Both the position numbers and the translations under genes were made by a program. Of a DNA stretch of 25,681 nucleotides, positions 1-25,681 are shown in pieces. How positions within the stretch are numbered: position 1 is the first letter of the stretch; each line of letters opens with the position of its first letter. Location of the stretch: the IMG/VR virus record IMGVR_UViG_3300025880_000096, positions 1 through 25,681 of that record; one strand, written 5' to 3'. This DNA is from a virus. The notes beneath the pieces were generated by a model. That model searched no databases and was not told the DNA's origin. It saw nothing but the letters and a program-made list of their open reading frames with translations.

Positions 1-3000
1 ACCTGAGCCTCTTTACTAAAGTTTGTTCGTAATACTTTTCGAGTCATAACTAAAGCTTGTTTAGCTCTAACCACACCTCTTACTTGAAGGTCTTTTATCT
101 GGTCTAATACTCTCTGTTGAGCCGCTTTATATGAAGCTTCAGATTCTTTCGCTGCTTTTGATTCAAGTTTTATTTGAGTAACCAATCCGTCAGCGTCTAT
201 CACAAGAGTAGATTTCTTTTTCTTTCCTTGAGTTATTCTCTTTGGGTTTATACCTCTTTTTCCTTTAGTAAATACTCCAGGTTCAGAAGCTGCTTTTCTG
301 TTTGCTTCTTTGTTTTTTGTATCCGTTAATGTATTCGGTTCTCTGTTTGGATCAATTGAAACAACAGTGTCTATATTTCTTTTTGTTGGTTTAAGTCCAG
401 TTAGTTTTTCAAATTTAATTTCTAAATCTACTAAACCAGGAGATTTTCCAGTCTGCGCCTTTACTTTTCCAGTATCATTTTGTATTATAAACTCAACAAC
501 CTGCTGAATGTAGTCGCTTTCTCTTTCTTGAGTATATCCATCAAGCTCCATTACTAAATCATCTAAACCACGAGTATCTGTATCCTGTCCAGTCTCTTTG
601 CCAAACATATTTTTTTGTTTCTTGGCAAACCAATAACGTCTCATATTGGGAGTAACATTGTTAGCGTCATTCGCATCTATAAATTGCTGTTCAGTTATTT
701 TACCTACTAATGAAGATATACCTAAAGGATCAGCTAATTCTTGTTTTTCTGATTTACTAAGCTCTTTTGATCTCTTTCTTTCTAAATCAATAGTCTCAGC
801 AACTTCTTTTATGTTGGTAGAGTTTTCTGCAATCTCAGAAGTGTATTGCTCTGGTGTTAAATTAGTAGACTCATCCAGCTGCAAAGGAGTACCCTCATTA
901 ACATCTATGACGTTTTCTAAAATAAACTCTTGAGCTTTTAGAGGAGTCTTTTCTAAAGGCCTCCCAGTCTTTCTATTTACAGCATAAGCCTTTCCTTCTG
1001 CATCTACTTCTACATCAACAGTTCTGCTCCCTGGAACTCTAAATCTTTGAGTACCTCCTTTACGTTGAGATGGAGGTATCGTTTGAAAATTTTTAGGAGC
1101 TTTTGGAGTTTTAACTAAAACTGGCAACTCTAAATCTATAGTATAAGTTTTTTTACCCCTCTTTGATCCTTGTCTTTTTATTTTAACCTCAATTCCTGGG
1201 TATGCCTTTTTTATTTTATCAACCTCAGCCTCAGCTTTAACTTTGTCATCAGTTCGGAAAGAACTAAAAGCTGCTTCATTACCTTTTTCTTTTACAGATT
1301 GCTGTGTTGCATCGCTGTACCTTGTTGTTTTTGTGACAACATTTCCATCTGAATCCACCTTTTCATTTAAGGTTTTAGATGTGTTGTATGTTTTTAAACC
1401 ACCTATAGATATAGTAGTTGTCTCTACTACTTCCGCTCCGTCTGGCAAGGCGTTTTCTGCCTCGGTAATCATGTTTTTAAAAACATCTCCAGTAGACTCC
1501 ATTTTAGCGGTAAACTTATTTGTAGGCTTTCCATTCTCGTAAACTCTCGTGAAACCAACAAAATTAGCAGAATCACCGCTACTACTTATAATAACATCTA
1601 ACTCTCCTGTCTGGGGATTATTATACTTAGCTGTTTGTACACCCTTAGAATCTGGACTTGTTATATCAGAGATAACAGCTTTACCATAAGGTAGTTTTTT
1701 GTCAGTATGAGATTTACCAAATATTTTTGGAGCTTTATTTATTCTATCTTTTCTATCTACTTCCGCTTCCTCTTGCGTGGTAGGTTCGGAACTCTCTTGT
1801 TCATTTTTGGCTGGACTCTCTTCGGTAATTTCTTCTTGGACGTTGACCTCTCCCACTCCTTCGCCATCTCTGGAAGATTCTTGTACATCCACCTGCGTTG
1901 TGCTTGACTCTTGAATGGCATCTACTTTCTCTTTTATTAATGATTGTTTTGCGTTATCAAACTCCTTGTCTGTGTACGTATCTTTATTTATTTTATCCTG
2001 AACTTCTTGATCAGTAATACTTTCCTCTACTTCTTTTTTTATGTCATCAGCTATTTTTTGATCCGCAATAATTGCTTTTTCAGCTTGTGTATCAGAGTTT
2101 TTAAGCTGTTCCATCATGGCTTTCTGCATATCAGAAACTTGACCTTCTGTTGCGGACTCTATTCCTTCTTCTTTTAATTTAGATCTTGCTTCAGCTCTGG
2201 AAACAGATAACACCTCTGTAAAGGTATTTCCATCCCTGGATATTTCTACTGTTTCTGTTATAGTAGATGATTCACCTATAAGAAAATTTATTTCTTGATC
2301 TATCTGACTTCTTCTTTGTCTTGTAGCCTCAGACCTTGCATCAGGCAGTTTGCTTTTTTCTAATTCTAATTTAACAATAGCATCTCTTTCTGGCCCTGGA
2401 GGAACACCTAAAGCTTGTAAGTCTGCATCAAATTGACTTGTAGCTTTTAAGTCTGTTATTACAGACTGCATTTTTTTATCGTTTTTTATTTCGATATCCA
2501 TACCAGCAATTTGATCTGGAGTTGCAGTTCCTATTGTTGCCAACATATAATCCTTGGTAACAAGGTCACCATTTAAATTATATCTTGGAGTAGTATAAAT
2601 ACCTCTTGCTAAAGATATAGGAGCATTACCTGCACCTGCAAAACCCTCAAGACCTATTTCAGCCACGTCCATTTCCTGACCAGCTAAAGCTCTTGCGGTT
2701 GCTTCACCCAAACTACCTCCAGCAATTTCAACACCTAAACCAGCGGATATCTCAATTCCTTTATTTACCATAGCTCTGGTTACAGTTCCTTTGCCTCCAG
2801 CAGCTAATTTTTTTGCTGTTGCTTTTGCCAGGGCTTTTCCTGTACCTCCAATAGCTTTTCCAGCAACACCTGCTGTCATGGCATCAATCATACCTATAGC
2901 AAGACCTCTTGTAGCAGCTCTATTTCTAATTCTTTGTAGTGCTTGATCGTCATTTAAAACCATCCTTATCCCTTCAGCATCAAACTTACCTCCTTTAGCC

Positions 3001-4064
3001 TCTACTTCTTCTTTCATAAATTCAGTATAAGACATACCAAATTCTAAAGCTGCCGAAGCTCCTCCCATAGCACCACCTACAGCACCTGCTCCTGTTCCAA
3101 ATAAAGCACCAGGGCCAGACACTGCTGTTAAGGCTGCACCAGCTGCTGCACCAGTTGCTGCACCTGCTCCTGCCGCTGCTGCGGAGGCTGGGTTAATCAT
3201 AGACGAAAGTGAGTCAATAAGTAATTCTGGAGCTATTGAAAGATTCGATCCAAAGCCAAGAATAAAGCCAAGAATACCACCACCATTTTCATCATAAATT
3301 TTCTGAAAGCTTTTCATTTCATCAGAAACAGTTACGTTCTCTGATCTCTTAACAGCAGCTATGTATTCTTGTAAGTCTTGATCTGAAATATTTTTTCCTT
3401 TCGCAAACAAAGCAATAGAGTCATCTACTGATTGACCTTTGGTGTATCCGTTACCAATAGCACGATACATATCTCCCCAAAAATCAGCACTAAGAACACC
3501 TAAAATTGGAACATCATCAAACGCCCAATCCATTGCTTGACCAAGCCAGCTTTCTTCAAGCCAAGTCTCGTCTTCCTTGTCGTTTTTAGGTATTCCATCG
3601 TCACCTAAAATAACAATCTCGTCATCTACAATTTCATATAATTTTTTTGCATTAGAAGTAGGATCTAATATACCAGGAAGCTCTTCCTGCTCAATGTTTG
3701 GTGTAACATTAACATTGGTTTCTTCTACATCTACTTGAGGAACATCTGCTTGAGGTACTTCTACTTGAGGAACATCAACTGTTGTTGGTGAAGAATCCGA
3801 AGATCCAGCCCCTTCCACTTGAGGAGTTTGTGTATTTGATTCCGTATTTTCCTCTGGAGAAATAATAGGAGTATCTCCAGTTTCTTCTTTTTTTTTTTGA
3901 AGCTCACCAAAGTAAGACAAATAACCTTCCATTGTAGGAAATGCATCTGGATCAATCTCATCGTACAAAACTTCTAATCCTTCTGAGTCAATTATACCCT
4001 GAAGTGTTTCTTTGTCATCTACAATACCCTCTAATAATCCTAATAAATCGTCTAATAATTCCAT
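1..4064 (-). CDS. Giant internal virion / ejection protein candidate (T7 gp16-like position), C-terminus cut by window edge
   Basis: An open frame of 1354 codons runs from ATG at 4064 off the left edge. I checked the frame at several points and saw no break. Residues 1-130 are acidic and low in complexity, including a VPQ(V/A)(D/E) repeat near residues 97-112. Residues about 262-340 and 386-495 are Ala/Gly-rich and hydrophobic, the kind of segment that could insert in or cross a membrane. The later part is charged, with helical acidic stretches and Lys/Arg-rich stretches. I saw no lytic transglycosylase signature, unlike T7 gp16. It is the last and largest gene after GNAT-like, Ala-rich and 675-aa genes, which matches the place of T7 gp16 (1318 aa), the DNA-ejection core protein. 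That role is inferred from order and size. An alternative is a phage polyvalent protein, a very large multidomain protein delivered with the genome. Confidence 0.6.
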   Translation of the reverse strand, partial: MELLDDLLGLLEGIVDDKETLQGIIDSEGLEVLYDEIDPDAFPTMEGYLSYFGELQKKKEETGDTPIISPEENTESNTQTPQVEGAGSSDSSPTTVDVPQVEVPQADVPQVDVEETNVNVTPNIEQEELPGILDPTSNAKKLYEIVDDEIVILGDDGIPKNDKEDETWLEESWLGQAMDWAFDDVPILGVLSADFWGDMYRAIGNGYTKGQSVDDSIALFAKGKNISDQDLQEYIAAVKRSENVTVSDEMKSFQKIYDENGGGILGFILGFGSNLSIAPELLIDSLSSMINPASAAAAGAGAATGAAAGAALTAVSGPGALFGTGAGAVGGAMGGASAALEFGMSYTEFMKEEVEAKGGKFDAEGIRMVLNDDQALQRIRNRAATRGLAIGMIDAMTAGVAGKAIGGTGKALAKATAKKLAAGGKGTVTRAMVNKGIEISAGLGVEIAGGSLGEATARALAGQEMDVAEIGLEGFAGAGNAPISLARGIYTTPRYNLNGDLVTKDYMLATIGTATPDQIAGMDIEIKNDKKMQSVITDLKATSQFDADLQALGVPPGPERDAIVKLELEKSKLPDARSEATRQRRSQIDQEINFLIGESSTITETVEISRDGNTFTEVLSVSRAEARSKLKEEGIESATEGQVSDMQKAMMEQLKNSDTQAEKAIIADQKIADDIKKEVEESITDQEVQDKINKDTYTDKEFDNAKQSLIKEKVDAIQESSTTQVDVQESSRDGEGVGEVNVQEEITEESPAKNEQESSEPTTQEEAEVDRKDRINKAPKIFGKSHTDKKLPYGKAVISDITSPDSKGVQTAKYNNPQTGELDVIISSSGDSANFVGFTRVYENGKPTNKFTAKMESTGDVFKNMITEAENALPDGAEVVETTTISIGGLKTYNTSKTLNEKVDSDGNVVTKTTRYSDATQQSVKEKGNEAAFSSFRTDDKVKAEAEVDKIKKAYPGIEVKIKRQGSKRGKKTYTIDLELPVLVKTPKAPKNFQTIPPSQRKGGTQRFRVPGSRTVDVEVDAEGKAYAVNRKTGRPLEKTPLKAQEFILENVIDVNEGTPLQLDESTNLTPEQYTSEIAENSTNIKEVAETIDLERKRSKELSKSEKQELADPLGISSLVGKITEQQFIDANDANNVTPNMRRYWFAKKQKNMFGKETGQDTDTRGLDDLVMELDGYTQERESDYIQQVVEFIIQNDTGKVKAQTGKSPGLVDLEIKFEKLTGLKPTKRNIDTVVSIDPNREPNTLTDTKNKEANRKAASEPGVFTKGKRGINPKRITQGKKKKSTLVIDADGLVTQIKLESKAAKESEASYKAAQQRVLDQIKDLQVRGVVRAKQALVMTRKVLRTNFSKEAQ
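3732..3776 (-). repeat. Three tandem 15-base units encoding DVPQV-type pentapeptides
   Basis: Three in-frame 15-base units read DVPQV, EVPQA and DVPQV in the acidic N-terminal region of the giant protein. It looks like a flexible linker grown by unit duplication. No function is evident. Confidence 0.75.
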
Positions 4065-4076
4065 AAATATTTATTA

Positions 4077-6104
4077 TTACTGAGTCTTACGCCATGCTTT
4101 ATAGTCTGCAAAGTTTTTCCCTGGATTTGATCGTTTCCATATTTTAAAACTCTGAACAGATTTGTTTTCTCTTTTCTTGTTAACTTTCTTAGTAGCTTCA
4201 TTGACCGCGTCAACTATTTTGTTTGCAATATTTGTTTTTGTTTCTCCACCACTAATTCTAATAGATGTCTCTTTACCAGCTATTTTTATTTTATAATACT
4301 CTTCACCACCAACTGTAACAACCTCTGTTGTTGGACTACCAAAACCTTGTTTTGCAAGCTCTCTTTTAAGCTCACCACCCATGGCGTTAACTACAACATC
4401 ATCTACAACCTCTTTAACTGTACTGTCAAAATTACCTTTGGTACTACCTCCAATTGCATCCTCTATTGTTTTTATAACTGTCTTACCAGAAGGCAGTGTA
4501 GACGTGTTAGTTATCACGTTAAGAGGAGGTTTCGATACCGATGTTTTTAATTCTCTATTTATACGAGGTTGTATATTTATTTTTTGAGATGTAATTAAAT
4601 TCCTAACCCTTCCTCTGCTATAACCCTTACCTGGAGTTAATATGTCAATAGCTGACATAATATCAGTCTCAGTATCAAGAATGTTTAACGACTCATCTAT
4701 ATCAGGAGTCGCTGGATCATCAGGAGTACCGCTATCGGATACTCTATCTATAATAAGATCATCTTGTCCTCCACCTCTTTTTACAACAATCATTGAATCT
4801 AAAATATCAAAAGATATAATTTTATCTTCTGGCCTTGTAGCTTCAGCATTTCTGGAATCAATAAGCCTCTTAAGAATAGCTTTTGATGAAGCAGCATTTG
4901 GACTTGTAAACACATCATTTAATTCAGATATATAACCTGCATCATCAACGTCCTTATTATTACCTGTAACAGCAGCTGTATTTGGCTGTTGCCCACTAAG
5001 ACCTTTAGCTTTTTTAGTTGACTGACCAAACTGCGTAAGAATTTCATCTTTTATAAATTGCTTAGCAGCAGCCTCTTGACCATCTACTAATGTAACGCTT
5101 GGAGGCTGAGTTGTATAATCAGCTTGAATCCATTTACTTAAATCCGTACCTCCTTTATTTACGAACTCTTGCTCTGTTTGAGCAATAATATATCTATCTG
5201 CCCCTGCTGATCTGCCTACTAAAATATTAGCAATAGACAATTCATCTCCCATAACAGTTTCTGATATAGTCTCAACAAGGGTGTTAAATCTTGTTTGACC
5301 ATCTTTTCCCTTCAAAGCATCTTCCATTTCTCTCGCTCCTTCACGAGTAACAACAACATTACCGCCATCAGTTACTGTGTATCCACTAATAGTGGATGTA
5401 ATAAAAGCACCAACATTTTTAACTTCATTTGCAACAATAGTGCTTACATCGTACTTTGCTCCATCATCTTGGTATAATAGTAAATTATTAAGATTATTAA
5501 AACTTTGATATGCGTCCCTCTGTGTATCCCACTCAGGCATACTTCCGTCTTCATTTAAACGAACCAGGTATGAATTACCTGTTGGTGAAGTAAATGGAAC
5601 TACATTGTCTAAGTTATTAAAAGCTAAAGTAGATTCCTTTATAGCTGTCTCCATTCCAGAAGCTATAACCTTACCATTAGGGCCTAACTTCTGTCTTGCT
5701 TCAGATTCAACAAATTTTGTATTCCAATCTTTGGCAGCGATACCCCAGTTAGCCATATCGTCTTTAGCTGTTTGAAGAGTAGCCATAAAATCAGAAGGTT
5801 TTATTTTACCTTTCTTCATTAACTGAGACTGCATTAAAAGAGTTTCTTTTAATCCCTTCGCAGCCAACAAAACTGTTTGACCTAAAGTCTGGTTTTGAAA
5901 AGAATCAGCTTTTTCTAACTGAGCAATTACATCGTCTGTATCTGCCTGTATCTTTGCTTTCTTCCCCTCCCTTGCAGTAGCTATAGCATTTACACCAGTT
6001 GTAATTTTTGCCGCCTCTTCAGCAAAGTTTAATTGAGATCCTTCACGACCTTGATAAACTTCATAATCCGATACCGACTCTTGTCTGCTAAATTCGTTTG
6101 CCAT
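4077..6104 (-). CDS. 675-aa internal virion protein candidate (T7 gp15-like position)
   Basis: A full-length ORF from ATG at 6104, starting MANEFSRQES. I recognise no catalytic motif. The N-terminal 150 residues are largely helical and rich in Ala, Lys and Gln. The middle is mixed alpha/beta, and the C-terminal 40 residues are strongly basic with Trp and Tyr (FKIWKRSNPGKNF...YKAWRKTQ), suggesting contact with nucleic acid or a partner virion protein. There is no signal peptide or obvious membrane span. It lies 12 bases upstream of the giant gene and 12 bases downstream of the Ala-rich 206-aa gene, so the three are probably co-transcribed. Size and order match T7 gp15 (747 aa), the internal core protein that forms part of the ejection channel. 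This function is inferred from context only. Confidence 0.6.
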   Translation of the reverse strand: MANEFSRQESVSDYEVYQGREGSQLNFAEEAAKITTGVNAIATAREGKKAKIQADTDDVIAQLEKADSFQNQTLGQTVLLAAKGLKETLLMQSQLMKKGKIKPSDFMATLQTAKDDMANWGIAAKDWNTKFVESEARQKLGPNGKVIASGMETAIKESTLAFNNLDNVVPFTSPTGNSYLVRLNEDGSMPEWDTQRDAYQSFNNLNNLLLYQDDGAKYDVSTIVANEVKNVGAFITSTISGYTVTDGGNVVVTREGAREMEDALKGKDGQTRFNTLVETISETVMGDELSIANILVGRSAGADRYIIAQTEQEFVNKGGTDLSKWIQADYTTQPPSVTLVDGQEAAAKQFIKDEILTQFGQSTKKAKGLSGQQPNTAAVTGNNKDVDDAGYISELNDVFTSPNAASSKAILKRLIDSRNAEATRPEDKIISFDILDSMIVVKRGGGQDDLIIDRVSDSGTPDDPATPDIDESLNILDTETDIMSAIDILTPGKGYSRGRVRNLITSQKINIQPRINRELKTSVSKPPLNVITNTSTLPSGKTVIKTIEDAIGGSTKGNFDSTVKEVVDDVVVNAMGGELKRELAKQGFGSPTTEVVTVGGEEYYKIKIAGKETSIRISGGETKTNIANKIVDAVNEATKKVNKKRENKSVQSFKIWKRSNPGKNFADYKAWRKTQ

Positions 6105-6116
6105 TATTTATGTTTT

Positions 6117-6737
6117 TTATTGACCAGCTGCTTTAGCATTAGCTAAATTATTGAAGTATGCTTGCTCGGCAGCAGTAAGTTGTTTACCTCCAAATAAAGG
6201 AGCTAATTGAGCTGCTGATCCAACTGTACTTACCACTCCGCTTATCCCTTGAGACAAAGCTGTCGCGGAAGCTGCCGCTGATTCTTTAGCAACTTTCTCT
6301 TGATCTTTTGCATAACCTAAATCTATACGCTTTAAGTCTTGATTAATAGCGTCTTTAGCATCTGCTTTCATTTTTGCATTTGCCTCTAAATCTTTTTGTA
6401 AACCTAAACGAGTAGCTTCGGTAGTAGCGTCAGAAGCTTGTTGAACTAACCCAACACCAGCTGCTAAGTTACGAGGATCTCCTTCTTGAAGAGCTTGTAT
6501 GTTTTGAGTTTGTGCTTGTAAATTATTTTCAAAAGCCCTATCGTAAGCTTCGGTAGAAACATTTAATCCAGCATAAAAATTCTTTTCTGCTTTCTTTTTA
6601 GCCTCAGCCATAGCTTTTTTTGAAGCTGCCGCGGCCTTTTCAGCCATCCTTCCTTGTTTTGCAGATTGACTAAAGGAGTTTATTGCTCCTCCTGCTGAAG
6701 CTGCTACCCCTACTACTGCTGCTGTTGTTACTGCCAT
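6117..6737 (-). CDS. Ala-rich 206-aa internal virion protein candidate (T7 gp14-like position)
   Basis: A small, very Ala-rich protein (MAVTTAAVVG...). The first 22 residues form a hydrophobic Ala/Gly/Val segment. About 120 residues of Ala/Lys/Glu/Gln-rich helix that could form a coiled coil follow, then a second Ala/Gly/Val/Ser-rich hydrophobic stretch near residues 155-185. This layout of amphipathic helix between hydrophobic Ala/Gly segments is what is known of T7 gp14 (196 aa) and P22 gp7, small ejected proteins that form or line a channel in the outer membrane. The gene ends 12 bases before the 675-aa gene and starts one base after the GNAT-like gene stops, so expression is probably coupled. 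The role is inferred from composition, length and order together. Confidence 0.68.
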   Translation of the reverse strand: MAVTTAAVVGVAASAGGAINSFSQSAKQGRMAEKAAAASKKAMAEAKKKAEKNFYAGLNVSTEAYDRAFENNLQAQTQNIQALQEGDPRNLAAGVGLVQQASDATTEATRLGLQKDLEANAKMKADAKDAINQDLKRIDLGYAKDQEKVAKESAAASATALSQGISGVVSTVGSAAQLAPLFGGKQLTAAEQAYFNNLANAKAAGQ

Positions 6738-6738
6738 A

Positions 6739-7149
6739 TTATATTTTTTTAATCATTTCAATAGAATACGTAGAAGCTTCTTCATATCCTATTTTTTTAT
6801 ATACGTTAATTAAAGGTTTATTTTTAATTAAAGCATATACATATTTTTTATTTAGGTCTTCAGCTTGCTTGGTAATAGTTCCAACTAATAAAGCTAAGGC
6901 CTCTTTTCTTTTATTCCTATCTTTGTAATGCAAATTAGATATTATCCAATCACACCACACCGCTGTAGAGTTAGTTGTGTACATAAATCCTGCACATATA
7001 GGCGTATCCTGGTCGTATACTATATAACCTCCTGTACCATTTTCAGGAAGAAAGTCTCTTGATGGAGCTGTCCATCTCCAGTCCGCCCACCAACCTACAA
7101 GTATATTGTCATAGTCGCTTACTTCTAATGGTCGTATATTTAATTTCAT
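6739..7149 (-). CDS. GNAT-fold acetyltransferase-like protein (T7 gp13-like position)
   Basis: A 136-aa protein with the outline of a GNAT N-acetyltransferase: an N-terminal beta strand with an acidic turn (LNIRPLEVSDYDNI), central strands (GGYIVYDQDTPICAGFMY), a helix after WCDWIISNLHY, and a C-terminal NKPLINVYKKIGYEE segment typical of the last helix-strand. The acetyl-CoA loop, normally (Q/R)xxG(G/A), is degenerate here (RNKRKEA), so catalysis is doubtful. T7 gp13 (138 aa) belongs to a family placed in the acetyltransferase clan and is needed in virion assembly. The length and the position just before the gp14/15/16-like genes are the same here. It may therefore be a structural or assembly derivative of the fold. 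The alternative is an active acetyltransferase acting on a host or virion protein. A TAnnTTTG promoter candidate lies immediately upstream. Confidence 0.72.
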   Translation of the reverse strand: MKLNIRPLEVSDYDNILVGWWADWRWTAPSRDFLPENGTGGYIVYDQDTPICAGFMYTTNSTAVWCDWIISNLHYKDRNKRKEALALLVGTITKQAEDLNKKYVYALIKNKPLINVYKKIGYEEASTYSIEMIKKI

Positions 7150-7170: not shown

Positions 7171-8001
7171 TTATGGAAAACTTTTCATCACGCTACTCCC
7201 TACTGAAAAGAGTTCAACTGGTGATGTTGAGTCGTTTTTTAACTCAAACTCTAAGTAATAACCTCTTGCTCCATGTGACTCCGCAACTGCATTTTTAATA
7301 AACATAATAAACTGTCCAACTGTTGGCACAGAACCGCCTGCTACTGTAGTGTCTACAGTAATACTTGTGCTTGTTTTAGCTGTTACTTGACCAATAAAAA
7401 TTGGAGCTGTAGTGGCTACACCAGCTGTTAAAGTTGCGGCATATACATTATCTCCAATATTTAATATAGAACCAATAGCTCCTGCAAAATCAATTAAAGT
7501 AGCAGCTGCTGTTCCACTAACTGCTGTACATACACCTACACCATTTGCTGATCTCATTTGCCAATTAACAGTGCCTGAATTAGTTCTTAAAAAACTAAAC
7601 CATTCACCTTCTTTTTGCACAAAATAAGTATCAAGCATTGATCCTGGTAAACCATCTGTTAGGTCTGTTTGAAGAGATGTACAAGCCCATCGAGCTTCAT
7701 TTGTATCCGCTACTGTTGTTGTTGACTCATAAGATAAAGTTTTAAATAACTTAATAGATAAAGTCGGCTCAGGATTAAAAACGCTTCTTATAGAAGATGC
7801 TGTAAATGATCCGTAATAAGTGTTTCGTAAAGGATTAGTATTATGTCTCCATAAATTACCTCCTTTAAAGCTGTAAAAAAAACTATTCATTCCTATCATA
7901 AAGTCAGGAAAAAAAGAATAAAAAGAAGGCCACCCTCCTTGCCCCCCAAACCTTGGTAGTGAAGAAGAATCTTTATTGTATGTTAATGTTTTATTTGCCA
8001 T
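7171..8001 (-). CDS. 276-aa tail (nozzle-associated) structural protein candidate
   Basis: A full-length ORF starting MANKTLTYNK. Residues 17-65 are rich in aromatics and Gly (GGWPSFYSFFPDF, IGMNSFFYSFKGGNLW), a pattern I associate with blades of tail-nozzle (muzzle) proteins of short-tailed Bacteroidota phages. Residues about 155-236 form a separate Val/Thr/Ala-rich beta module containing IGDNVY and STSITVD. It resembles inserts in the 325-aa connector and in the capsid protein. The C-terminal 35 residues return to the tail-protein style. The gene lies 13 bases downstream of the 347-aa tail gene and shares its A/T-rich leader (AAATAAAACTAT) just before the ATG. I infer a virion protein of the tail tip or nozzle; a precise role is not established. 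Confidence 0.6.
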   Translation of the reverse strand: MANKTLTYNKDSSSLPRFGGQGGWPSFYSFFPDFMIGMNSFFYSFKGGNLWRHNTNPLRNTYYGSFTASSIRSVFNPEPTLSIKLFKTLSYESTTTVADTNEARWACTSLQTDLTDGLPGSMLDTYFVQKEGEWFSFLRTNSGTVNWQMRSANGVGVCTAVSGTAAATLIDFAGAIGSILNIGDNVYAATLTAGVATTAPIFIGQVTAKTSTSITVDTTVAGGSVPTVGQFIMFIKNAVAESHGARGYYLEFELKNDSTSPVELFSVGSSVMKSFP

Positions 8002-8014
8002 ATAGTTTTATTTT

Positions 8015-9058
8015 TTAAGTTGGATTACAAGGCCCTGAAGACACAACAACTCCGTTTCTAATTCCTAAAGCAGTTGTTCCAGATGGCCCAGGATTTCCTA
8101 TTATAACGTATTGAAGTGTATTGGTATCATTTAGGTACGCTGAACCATCAGACGCTGTAAAAACAAAATTACCTATCTCTGGCAACGTATTAGTTCTCAC
8201 AGTATAAGGAACTGTAGTTCCAGTTGCATTTCTAACAAAATAGTAAGTTGTATTTGGAGTAAAACAACCAACTCCTCCTTGAAGAGGTGAGCCTGTAAAA
8301 GATGGTAACGCAACAGGACAATCTATCTCCCAATTAAATGCAGTGCCGCAAAGTGGTGCAAATATTTGTAAACCTAAAACTGTTGGGGTTACAGATGTTT
8401 TTGGAACAACCATAGTAAATACAGGAGAATCAGGATCTGAAGCATAACCTATAGCATTAGAAGCAATTGTAACATTTTGAGTTGTTCCTTGATCCACGTA
8501 TGCTCCAGAAACTAAGGAGAAATTTGATGGAGAAGTACCCTGTGTTGGGCAAGATCCAGCACTATTGTAAGGGCTATTGGTTAATAAATTTGCGTTTTGA
8601 TTACCCACATAAGTAGGTAAACCTGTTCCTTGATTAAATATGCCAGCATAATCCACCTGTACTCCAGCTCCGTCAATTAATGTAACTCCATTATGATTAT
8701 CTGCTGCGGTTAATCTATTGTAATGTGTTCCATTCCATGTTACATCTACACCATCTGGGATTGAAGATCCCATAAAAAAACGTATTACCACAGCCCCTGT
8801 ATCATTTGCTAAATCAATATTAGCATCAAAAACTCCATTTTGATTATTTATTGAAGCAGAAAGTCCTGAACCACAAGGAACGAGACAAGCGCTACATGGT
8901 TGAGCATTAAGCAATATTCCGTTTAACTGCTGTCTAACTATCAAGCCTTGTCCATAATAACCATCAGGAGCTAAAGTGCTTAATGAAGAATCTGTATATA
9001 AAGATGTTGCTGACGAAAAATTTACGCCATCGAAACAGTATGTTCCTAATGTTGCCAT
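8015..9058 (-). CDS. 347-aa secreted-style tail protein with Cys-flanked modules
   Basis: A Ser/Thr/Asn/Gly-rich, almost Lys-free protein (MATLGTYCFD...) with the composition of a beta-rich fibre or tip protein. Residues about 8-62 contain LYTDSSLSTLAPDGYY followed by a Cys cluster (C55, C58, C62). Residues 272-344 carry a YY...TLPEIGNFVF...GIRNGVVVSSGPC module resembling the C-terminus of the 1616-aa neighbour. I recall this YY-GTGT-P-GD-V-GYY-VVxxxxC pattern from surface and tail proteins of Bacteroidota and their phages. The middle part (100-260) has no recognisable family. It lies 12 bases downstream of the nozzle-like gene. A receptor-contact or tail-tip role is inferred from composition and position. 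It could equally be an accessory nozzle subunit. Confidence 0.55.
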   Translation of the reverse strand: MATLGTYCFDGVNFSSATSLYTDSSLSTLAPDGYYGQGLIVRQQLNGILLNAQPCSACLVPCGSGLSASINNQNGVFDANIDLANDTGAVVIRFFMGSSIPDGVDVTWNGTHYNRLTAADNHNGVTLIDGAGVQVDYAGIFNQGTGLPTYVGNQNANLLTNSPYNSAGSCPTQGTSPSNFSLVSGAYVDQGTTQNVTIASNAIGYASDPDSPVFTMVVPKTSVTPTVLGLQIFAPLCGTAFNWEIDCPVALPSFTGSPLQGGVGCFTPNTTYYFVRNATGTTVPYTVRTNTLPEIGNFVFTASDGSAYLNDTNTLQYVIIGNPGPSGTTALGIRNGVVVSSGPCNPT

Positions 9059-24782: not shown

Positions 24783-24867
24783 CTTTATTTCGATTATATT
24801 TAAGTTTTAATTTATCTACTTTCTCATACCATTCGGTATTATTTTTTTCAATTTTTTTATTACTCAT
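24739..24867 (-). CDS. 42-aa basic small ORF between oxygenase and 91-aa gene
   Basis: An ATG at 24867 overlaps the end of the oxygenase gene by eight bases and opens a frame that continues to TGA at 24739, 44 bases into the 91-aa gene. The product begins MSNKKIEKNNTEWYEKVDKL and is Lys/Asn/Tyr-rich and strongly basic (YKKHKKRDYKSW end). It fills what would otherwise be a 77-base gap in a region where every junction overlaps, which favours a coding role. High A content makes open frames with Lys/Asn common by chance, so support is moderate. No function can be named. Confidence 0.45.
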   Translation of the reverse strand: MSNKKIEKNNTEWYEKVDKLKLKYNRNKDGYKKHKKRDYKSW

Positions 24868-25441
24868 AATCAGAAACCTTGTAAAACATAACAAAAACTT
24901 TTCTTCCCTCTTTCCATGATATGTTTGGATATTTACTATGAAAATAACTTGAAGGGTAAGAAACTAATCTATTTTCTTCATAACCAACAACTGTACTTAA
25001 TCTCCACCTATCTAAGTTGTTAGCATCTAATTTAATCATTTTATCGTAATCTTCATCAGTTATTTCTTTAGGAATCTCTCTTCCATAAATATCATGTTCC
25101 CATAAAGCAGTTCCATGAAGATCTTCCTTTTCTCTTGGAGACAAATAAAGAACTAATGCTCTATCTGGTTTTTCACCATTAATATTTAAATCAGAATGAA
25201 TCCTCCAGGAAACATCCAAGGTGTCTGTAGATACTCTAAAAAAACTTAAAATATTTTTTATCTCTTTACCCTCTACCATAGACAGCCTTGAAGTAACATA
25301 CTTATCAAACTCTTTATTTGATTTCTGTATGTGAAAATCTTTATCTCCTGCTTTTATTTTATTAAAAGTATTTTTATCTAAATAATCATTAGCTATTTTA
25401 AATAAGTTTTTTTCTACAAAGTCATCTAATATATAAATCAT
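24860..25441 (-). CDS. 2OG-Fe(II) dioxygenase-like protein
   Basis: A 193-aa protein with the double-stranded beta-helix signature. RIHSDLNI supplies the HxD iron ligands (H82, D84), YFHSKYPN supplies the distal His (H168), and EGRKVFVMFY supplies the Arg that would bind 2-oxoglutarate (R180). Between them lie RALVLYLSP and HGTALWEH, typical strands of phage members. The family oxidises a substrate with O2 and 2-oxoglutarate. Phage versions may hydroxylate proteins or modify nucleotides, and the substrate here is unknown. The gene overlaps the co-chaperonin-like gene by an ATGA junction and the small ORF by eight bases, so it is part of an operon leading into packaging genes. All ligands are present, so activity is plausible. 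Confidence 0.82.
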   Translation of the reverse strand: MIYILDDFVEKNLFKIANDYLDKNTFNKIKAGDKDFHIQKSNKEFDKYVTSRLSMVEGKEIKNILSFFRVSTDTLDVSWRIHSDLNINGEKPDRALVLYLSPREKEDLHGTALWEHDIYGREIPKEITDEDYDKMIKLDANNLDRWRLSTVVGYEENRLVSYPSSYFHSKYPNISWKEGRKVFVMFYKVSDYE

Positions 25442-25681
25442 AAAGAAAAAGTTATGTTGTTGGTAAACATTCTGTAGAGTCTTTCTCCATCTATATTAAA
25501 CTCATATTCGCTGTCTGGCTGGTAAGATATTTCATCACCAACTTTCAAGCCCATGCTTAACAACTGATCGTTAATATATTTTATTGTTCCAAACAAAGGT
25601 TCTTCTGTAATTGATTTTTTTATAAAAGATTTTTTAGTTGGAGATGGTTTTATAAAACAATACTTATTATAGCCTTTCCAT
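25438..25681 (-). CDS. GroES-like co-chaperonin, N-terminus cut by window edge
   Basis: The last 80 codons of a frame entering at the right edge and ending in TGA that overlaps the oxygenase ATG (ATGA). The visible C-terminal part reads LFGTIKYINDQLLSMGLKVGDEISYQP, then SEYEFNIDGERLYRMFTNNITF. This matches the GroES pattern GxVxxV...VKxGDxVxF...G-x-E-(x)-IDGExYLIxRxxDI strand by strand, with the mobile loop expected further upstream outside the window. Phage co-chaperonins such as T4 gp31 work with host GroEL to fold the capsid protein, and a position just before packaging and head genes would suit that. No start is visible. Identification rests on the C-terminal half only. Confidence 0.55.
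   Translation of the reverse strand, partial: WKGYNKYCFIKPSPTKKSFIKKSITEEPLFGTIKYINDQLLSMGLKVGDEISYQPDSEYEFNIDGERLYRMFTNNITFSL

Follow-up and report, generated by a model that had tools for sequence, protein, structure and literature searches.

The stretch of DNA analysed here (the window; the whole linear IMG/VR record IMGVR_UViG_3300025880_000096, 25,681 bases) probably encodes the ejection proteins of an uncultured marine podovirus related to Pachyviridae, Pervagoviridae and Elemovirus, which would provide a pore, a conduit and a delivery protein. These are the products of four consecutive ORFs of 136, 206, 675 and at least 1354 aa, all on the minus strand (Table 1), for which a sequence-only reading had proposed a one-to-one correspondence with T7 genes 13-14-15-16 and a remote ejectosome. 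An ejection cassette with the T7 order and a gp14-like member stands, the link to gp13 is weak and marginal, and gp15 and gp16 find no match. The best reading is therefore a diverged podovirus ejectosome, the largest member of which also carries an exchangeable payload.

Table 1. Features of the cassette and of the neighbouring tail genes (window coordinates).
Feature	Position	Strand	Evidence
Tail nozzle, crassvirus muzzle family, 1616 aa	9071..13921	-	Pfam crAss_MUZ E 3.4e-12; phrog_14478 E 8e-223
276-aa protein, crassvirus muzzle C-terminal domain	7171..8001	-	Pfam crAss_MUZ_C E 7.6e-9
136-aa GNAT-like protein, T7 gp13 position	6739..7149	-	Pfam Acetyltransf_3, FR47 E 0.011; phrog_17252 E 1.9e-37
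206-aa Ala-rich helical protein, hydrophobic N-terminus	6117..6737	-	hhalign to T7 gp14; phrog_13764 virion protein
GxxR site, codons of G86-D-P-R89, between predicted helices of the 206-aa protein	6471..6482	-	
675-aa alpha/beta virion protein, gp15 position	4077..6104	-	Homologues 449-773 aa; MS/MS annotation of phi18:3 gp121, phi40:1 gp100
Giant protein, N-terminal 1354 aa, cut by contig end	3..4064	-	phrog_32588 E 2.1e-61, residues 193-544
Conserved giant region, residues 165-600	2265..3572	-	Homologue alignment; hydropathy
Exchangeable giant segment, about residues 772-989	1098..1749	-	Unrelated segment of about 92 aa in L008

ORF analysis places all main genes of the window on the minus strand. 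They include TerL (749 aa), the portal (811 aa), a 384-aa gene in the scaffold position and a 497-aa capsid-type virion protein; 254-aa and 111-aa genes and then two ring-type proteins (325 and 307 aa) precede the 1616-aa nozzle. The components of the upstream order that had been likened to T7 genes 8 to 12 (portal, scaffold position, capsid, ring, nozzle) are thus present, but this order is common to many podoviruses and not specific to T7. Comparison of TerL and the nozzle puts the phage close to MW202828, with Cellulophaga, Flavobacterium, Tenacibaculum and Maribacter podophages as more distant kin; TerL identity to named relatives reaches at most 72% (MW202828). Near TerL lies a fragment of a GroES-like co-chaperonin gene (25438-25680; phrog_13932 E 6.9e-8), and such a gene near TerL is also found in phi38:1, phi18:3 and elemo. 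Small genes of 193 aa and 91 aa separate the fragment from TerL, the former (24860-25441) matching phrog_1644 (minor coat protein, E 2.9e-9) and DUF6445.

Its crAss_MUZ match, which spans residues 9-459, makes the nozzle a crassvirus-type muzzle rather than a counterpart of T7 gp12, to which no relation is detectable. The muzzle is seemingly split, its body being the 1616-aa protein and its C-terminal domain the 276-aa protein. Between the two pieces lies a 347-aa gene (8015-9058), the length of which ranges from about 284 to 844 aa across relatives, with constant genes on either side; it possibly encodes a receptor-binding tail-tip protein. Since the 347-aa and 276-aa genes intervene, the cassette does not directly follow the nozzle, as had been supposed. 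With these two genes inserted, the locus shows the order of the T7 core (nozzle, small GNAT-like protein, a protein of about 200 aa, one of about 500-900 aa, large protein). A small, medium and large gene behind the nozzle are also found in T7, SP6, phiKMV, P-SSP7 and epsilon15, in agreement with reviewed ejectosomes (PMC8954989; PMC10925440).

The same cassette order occurs in Cellulophaga phages phi38:1 and phi40:1 (Pervagoviridae; near-identical in the layout of this region) and phi18:3 (Pachyviridae), in the Flavobacterium elemo phages (Elemovirus) and in MW202828, all of which share homologous 136-aa and 206-aa proteins, muzzle, portal and TerL, but differ in the 347-aa and 276-aa genes. 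In four cultured or complete relatives the sizes are 132-136, 200-302, 449-644 and 1691-3859 aa. A search of viral contigs with the 136-aa profile returned 244 relatives, and among the best 80 of these the order is 136-139, 200-334, 500-773 aa and giant wherever the sequence suffices, with one fragmented exception (L107). Its recurrence in about 80 IMG/VR contigs as well as in cultured phages puts the order far beyond chance.

Homology to the four cultured or complete relatives was tested with profiles built from environmental sequences only. The 136-aa profile finds homologues in MW202828 (E 8.6e-46), phi18:3 and elemo, down to phi38:1 (E 3.6e-7). The 206-aa profile matches MW202828 (E 2.2e-28) and phi38:1 (E 4.8e-5) and is weak on elemo and phi18:3 (E 0.2-0.3), yet these four homologues are its top four hits. 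With the 675-aa profile, MW202828 scores E 4.4e-55 and phi38:1 E 0.0055, and elemo and phi18:3 give no match. The profile of the giant N-terminus matches MW202828 (E 3.8e-22), where only the N-terminal part of the giant is recognisable, and also gp122 of phi18:3 (L004:23310-23621; E 8.4e-5), a small gene just upstream of the giant, so that this piece is a separate gene there; the giant of phi38:1 was assigned by position.

Mass spectrometry of virions had been named as a check, and the public records of two of these relatives carry such annotation. In phi40:1 the counterparts of all four proteins (gp098, gp099, gp100 and gp101) are annotated from experimental MS/MS, and in phi18:3 so are gp120, gp121 and gp123, the 136-aa gene not being marked in this way. 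It is through these record notes on cultured relatives that packaging into virions is seen. Given the recurrence of the cassette and the MS/MS annotation of the phi40:1 counterparts, it is very probably an internal-virion (ejection) set.

The closest link to T7 is that of the 206-aa protein. When its family was compared with T7 proteins 8-16 by hhalign, gp14 was the best pair (E 0.002-0.004, colinear from the N-terminus), against E 0.25-0.41 for a reversed-gp14 control, and the profile-profile score (25.8) exceeds those of all 100 block-shuffled controls (maximum 23.7). Pfam T7_gp14 (PF24072) is matched by more of 44 homologues than any other family (16 of them at E<=1, best 0.0012), although none of the 44 reaches its cut-off and the window protein itself has no match. 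Six-frame searches of 50 related records (13 + 37) gave ten T7_gp14 matches at E<=1, and all of them fall on the 206-aa gene, as checked against the locus table, the best (E 1.0e-5) being in contig L033. Additionally, R89 of the GxxR site is present in 45 of 45 homologues and G86 in 42 of them, T7-type gp14 proteins carry G79 and R82 at the same spacing in six of six cases, and the two arginines align in hhalign. A plain HMM of nine gp14 sequences separates real from shuffled homologues only weakly (means of -4.2 and -8.9 bits; maxima alike). For comparison, phiKMV gp35, which is accepted as a gp14, obtains E 0.0073 with the T7 gp14 profile and does not surpass the 206-aa family. The reverse search with the 206-aa profile recovered no gp14 in T7, SP6, phiKMV or P-SSP7, and likewise misses the homologue of phi18:3; P22, N4, epsilon15 and crAss001 yielded nothing. 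The AlphaFold2 model (pLDDT 53) is too poor for a fold search, and tblastn searches of phage records with the 206-aa and giant proteins gave no hits, which shows how far both have diverged. Collectively, these signals, sub-threshold but specific, support a credible remote relation to T7 gp14, and the 206-aa protein is predicted to be an outer-membrane pore component. Peptidase_S74 (endosialidase chaperone) is matched as well by five of the 44 homologues, at best with E 1e-4; the matching part is probably their longer C-terminus.

For the 136-aa protein, the proposed GNAT likeness is retained in weak form, with Pfam matches below cut-off (E 0.011), one of them across nearly the full length. Its family aligns full-length and colinearly with the T7 gp13 profile at E 0.011, close to unrelated controls (0.015-0.02), which leaves the gp13 link marginal. 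The acetyl-CoA loop motif in its usual form is not evident in the family alignment, and this suggests a non-catalytic role; the product is probably a chaperone or a minor virion protein. The T7 gp13 profile strongly matches epsilon15 gp13, labelled GNAT-like by its depositors, and a P-SSP7 protein (E 1.9e-8 and 6.3e-8), both encoded between the nozzle gene and the gp14-position gene, immediately after the former. Other phages therefore already show the order nozzle, GNAT-like, gp14, gp15, gp16. The reverse search with the 136-aa profile in T7, SP6, phiKMV, P-SSP7, P22, N4, epsilon15 and crAss001 found nothing.

The 675-aa protein, a candidate periplasmic conduit or cargo protein, was modelled with AlphaFold2 at moderate confidence (pLDDT 70.9, pTM 0.43) as long N-terminal helices followed by an alpha/beta part. 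Foldseek against the PDB gave nothing at E<=0.001; the top match, the N4 mini-vRNAP (E 0.094, probability 0.14), is noise. Against viral predicted structures the strong matches are unnamed proteins of similar length. Tenacibaculum phage Gundel_1 is matched at E 3.8e-4, and Cellulophaga phi17:2 and crass-like proteins (the latter at E 0.006-0.05) are weak neighbours.

The giant protein is truncated by the contig end, and hence the agreement with the size of T7 gp16 (1318 aa) is an artefact: complete giants measure 2283-2435 aa in the nearest relatives, and 1691-3859 aa when the comparison is broadened. Hydropathy shows Gly/Ala-rich hydrophobic segments near residues 264-315, within the conserved region. 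Farther along, the giant gene of the window and that of contig L008 are 97.1% identical in DNA over nt 1-2315 and 95.5% over nt 2968-4062, and between these flanks 652 nt of the window stand against 275 nt in L008 with no similarity. The L008 segment shares about 45% identity with the distant L101 and L097, and that of the window is related to L006, L007, L033, L035 and L081. Near-identical phages thus differ by the clean exchange of one segment at about residues 772-989, a pattern that a payload slot would be expected to show. A second divergence point is seen after residue about 1250, where the identity of the window and L007 giants falls from about 76-90% to 36-50% (window 3-300, giant residues about 1255-1354).

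How far the likeness to T7 extends is the main point on which other explanations differ. A fully homologous gp13-gp14-gp15-gp16 set, inherited from an ancestor shared with T7 and with gp15 and gp16 changed too far to be recognised, would account for the shared gene order, the gp14 signal and the full-length, colinear alignment with gp13, the E-value of which is only 0.011. Sequence dissimilarity by itself is not sufficient to dismiss common descent, since the accepted gp15-like proteins of P22, SP6, phiKMV and P-SSP7 are likewise missed by the T7 gp15 profile, in line with reports that such proteins are hard to match by sequence (PMC8954989), and accepted gp15 and gp16 relatives in P22, P-SSP7 and phiKMV are mostly unrecognisable to T7 profiles too. 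Nevertheless, the T7 gp13, gp15 and gp16 profiles matched nothing in 13 related genomes (searches run without a positive control), the gp15 profile does not match the 675-aa family, and gp15 is absent from the 50 listed PDB matches of the moderately confident 675-aa model, although the PDB copy includes gp15 structures. The giant, about twice as long as gp16, lacks an SLT transglycosylase domain in every homologue scanned, and an hhalign match to gp16 (E 0.0025 with a 9-sequence alignment) vanished once the alignment was enlarged to 35 sequences, and also when a cleaner subset was used. The equations of the 675-aa protein with gp15 and of the giant with gp16 are thus not upheld, and complete homology appears unlikely. 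The crassvirus-type muzzle would instead fit a cargo set like that of crAss001, the muzzle of which also precedes cargo proteins of 842, 534 and 2341 aa (PMC10172136), the T7 likeness then being a coincidence of size and order; the crass-like Foldseek neighbours of the 675-aa model point the same way. We consider this quite improbable: in hhalign comparisons with the single crAss001 sequences, gp45, gp46 and gp47 gave no credible match to the 206-aa, 675-aa and giant profiles, apart from a 33-column hydrophobic stretch (E 0.0022), and genome-wide searches place the gp14 signal specifically on the 206-aa gene.

A further question is whether the giant serves mainly as a polyvalent effector that is injected for anti-defence or host takeover and has no structural role in the conduit. 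Polyvalent proteins typically adjoin virion genes and are rich in zincins (PMC5512222). Most relatives outside the window clade carry an aligned HExxH in the context INxxxAxxxTIAHExFHA (zincin), and single relatives contain ART-PolyVal (E 1.3e-7), LPD23 or DUF3293, a combination that reads as the signature of polyvalent proteins; the clean segment exchange agrees with it. Against this, giants of the window clade have neither HExxH nor a named Pfam domain, the N-terminal region is conserved and contains hydrophobic segments, and a giant is always present at the gp16 position. An effector with no conduit role is hence a possibility of some weight, though not the one we favour. Comparably tentative is the picture of a hybrid injection machine that would combine a crassvirus muzzle, a T7-type gp14 pore starter, an unrelated conduit and a giant with a swappable payload slot.

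Under the preferred reading of a diverged podovirus ejectosome, the 136-aa GNAT-fold chaperone-like protein would aid the loading of the 206-aa membrane protein into the head. Upon adsorption the crassvirus-type muzzle would open, the 206-aa gp14-like protein would exit first to form an outer-membrane pore, and the 675-aa protein may lengthen the conduit across the periplasm. The giant would leave last, its N-terminal hydrophobic region anchoring it at the inner membrane, and could thereby deliver its variable C-terminal modules.

The same division of labour among ejection proteins is documented in T7 (PMC8954989) and in Schitoviridae, where the third member is a giant RNA polymerase (PMC10925440). 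The cassette resembles the T7 internal core in order, in three of the four sizes and in the gp14-like and GNAT-like small proteins, and differs from it in the undetectable gp15 and gp16, the missing SLT domain, the crassvirus-type nozzle and the length of the giant; T7 also has a T7-type RNA polymerase, whereas none was found in the relatives searched. Schitoviridae (N4; DEV gp73-gp72-gp71) likewise place small and medium ejection proteins beside a giant multi-domain virion protein, and N4 gp50-gp52 show no sequence similarity to the cassette proteins. In Crassvirales, crAss001 gp44-gp47 comprise a homologous muzzle followed by medium and giant proteins, as here, with cargo proteins carried behind the muzzle (PMC10172136). 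Polyvalent proteins (Iyer et al., 2017; PMC5512222) are similarly giant, modular and linked to virion genes, and the window's relatives share their zincin, ART and LPD domains, but recognisable enzymatic domains are absent from the window clade.

In the literature found, the coverage of which is incomplete, the cassette of this lineage seems not to have been described as an ejection set. The functional class is already known, and what is new lies most strongly in the relation to gp14 and in the exchangeable giant. No other part of the podovirus virion is as hard to recognise as its ejection proteins, and the present analysis offers an assignment, open to test, for a family that occurs often in marine viral contigs and includes culturable phages. 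It connects a crassvirus-type tail with a T7-type gp14, and the swappable segment of the giant could reveal new phage effectors.
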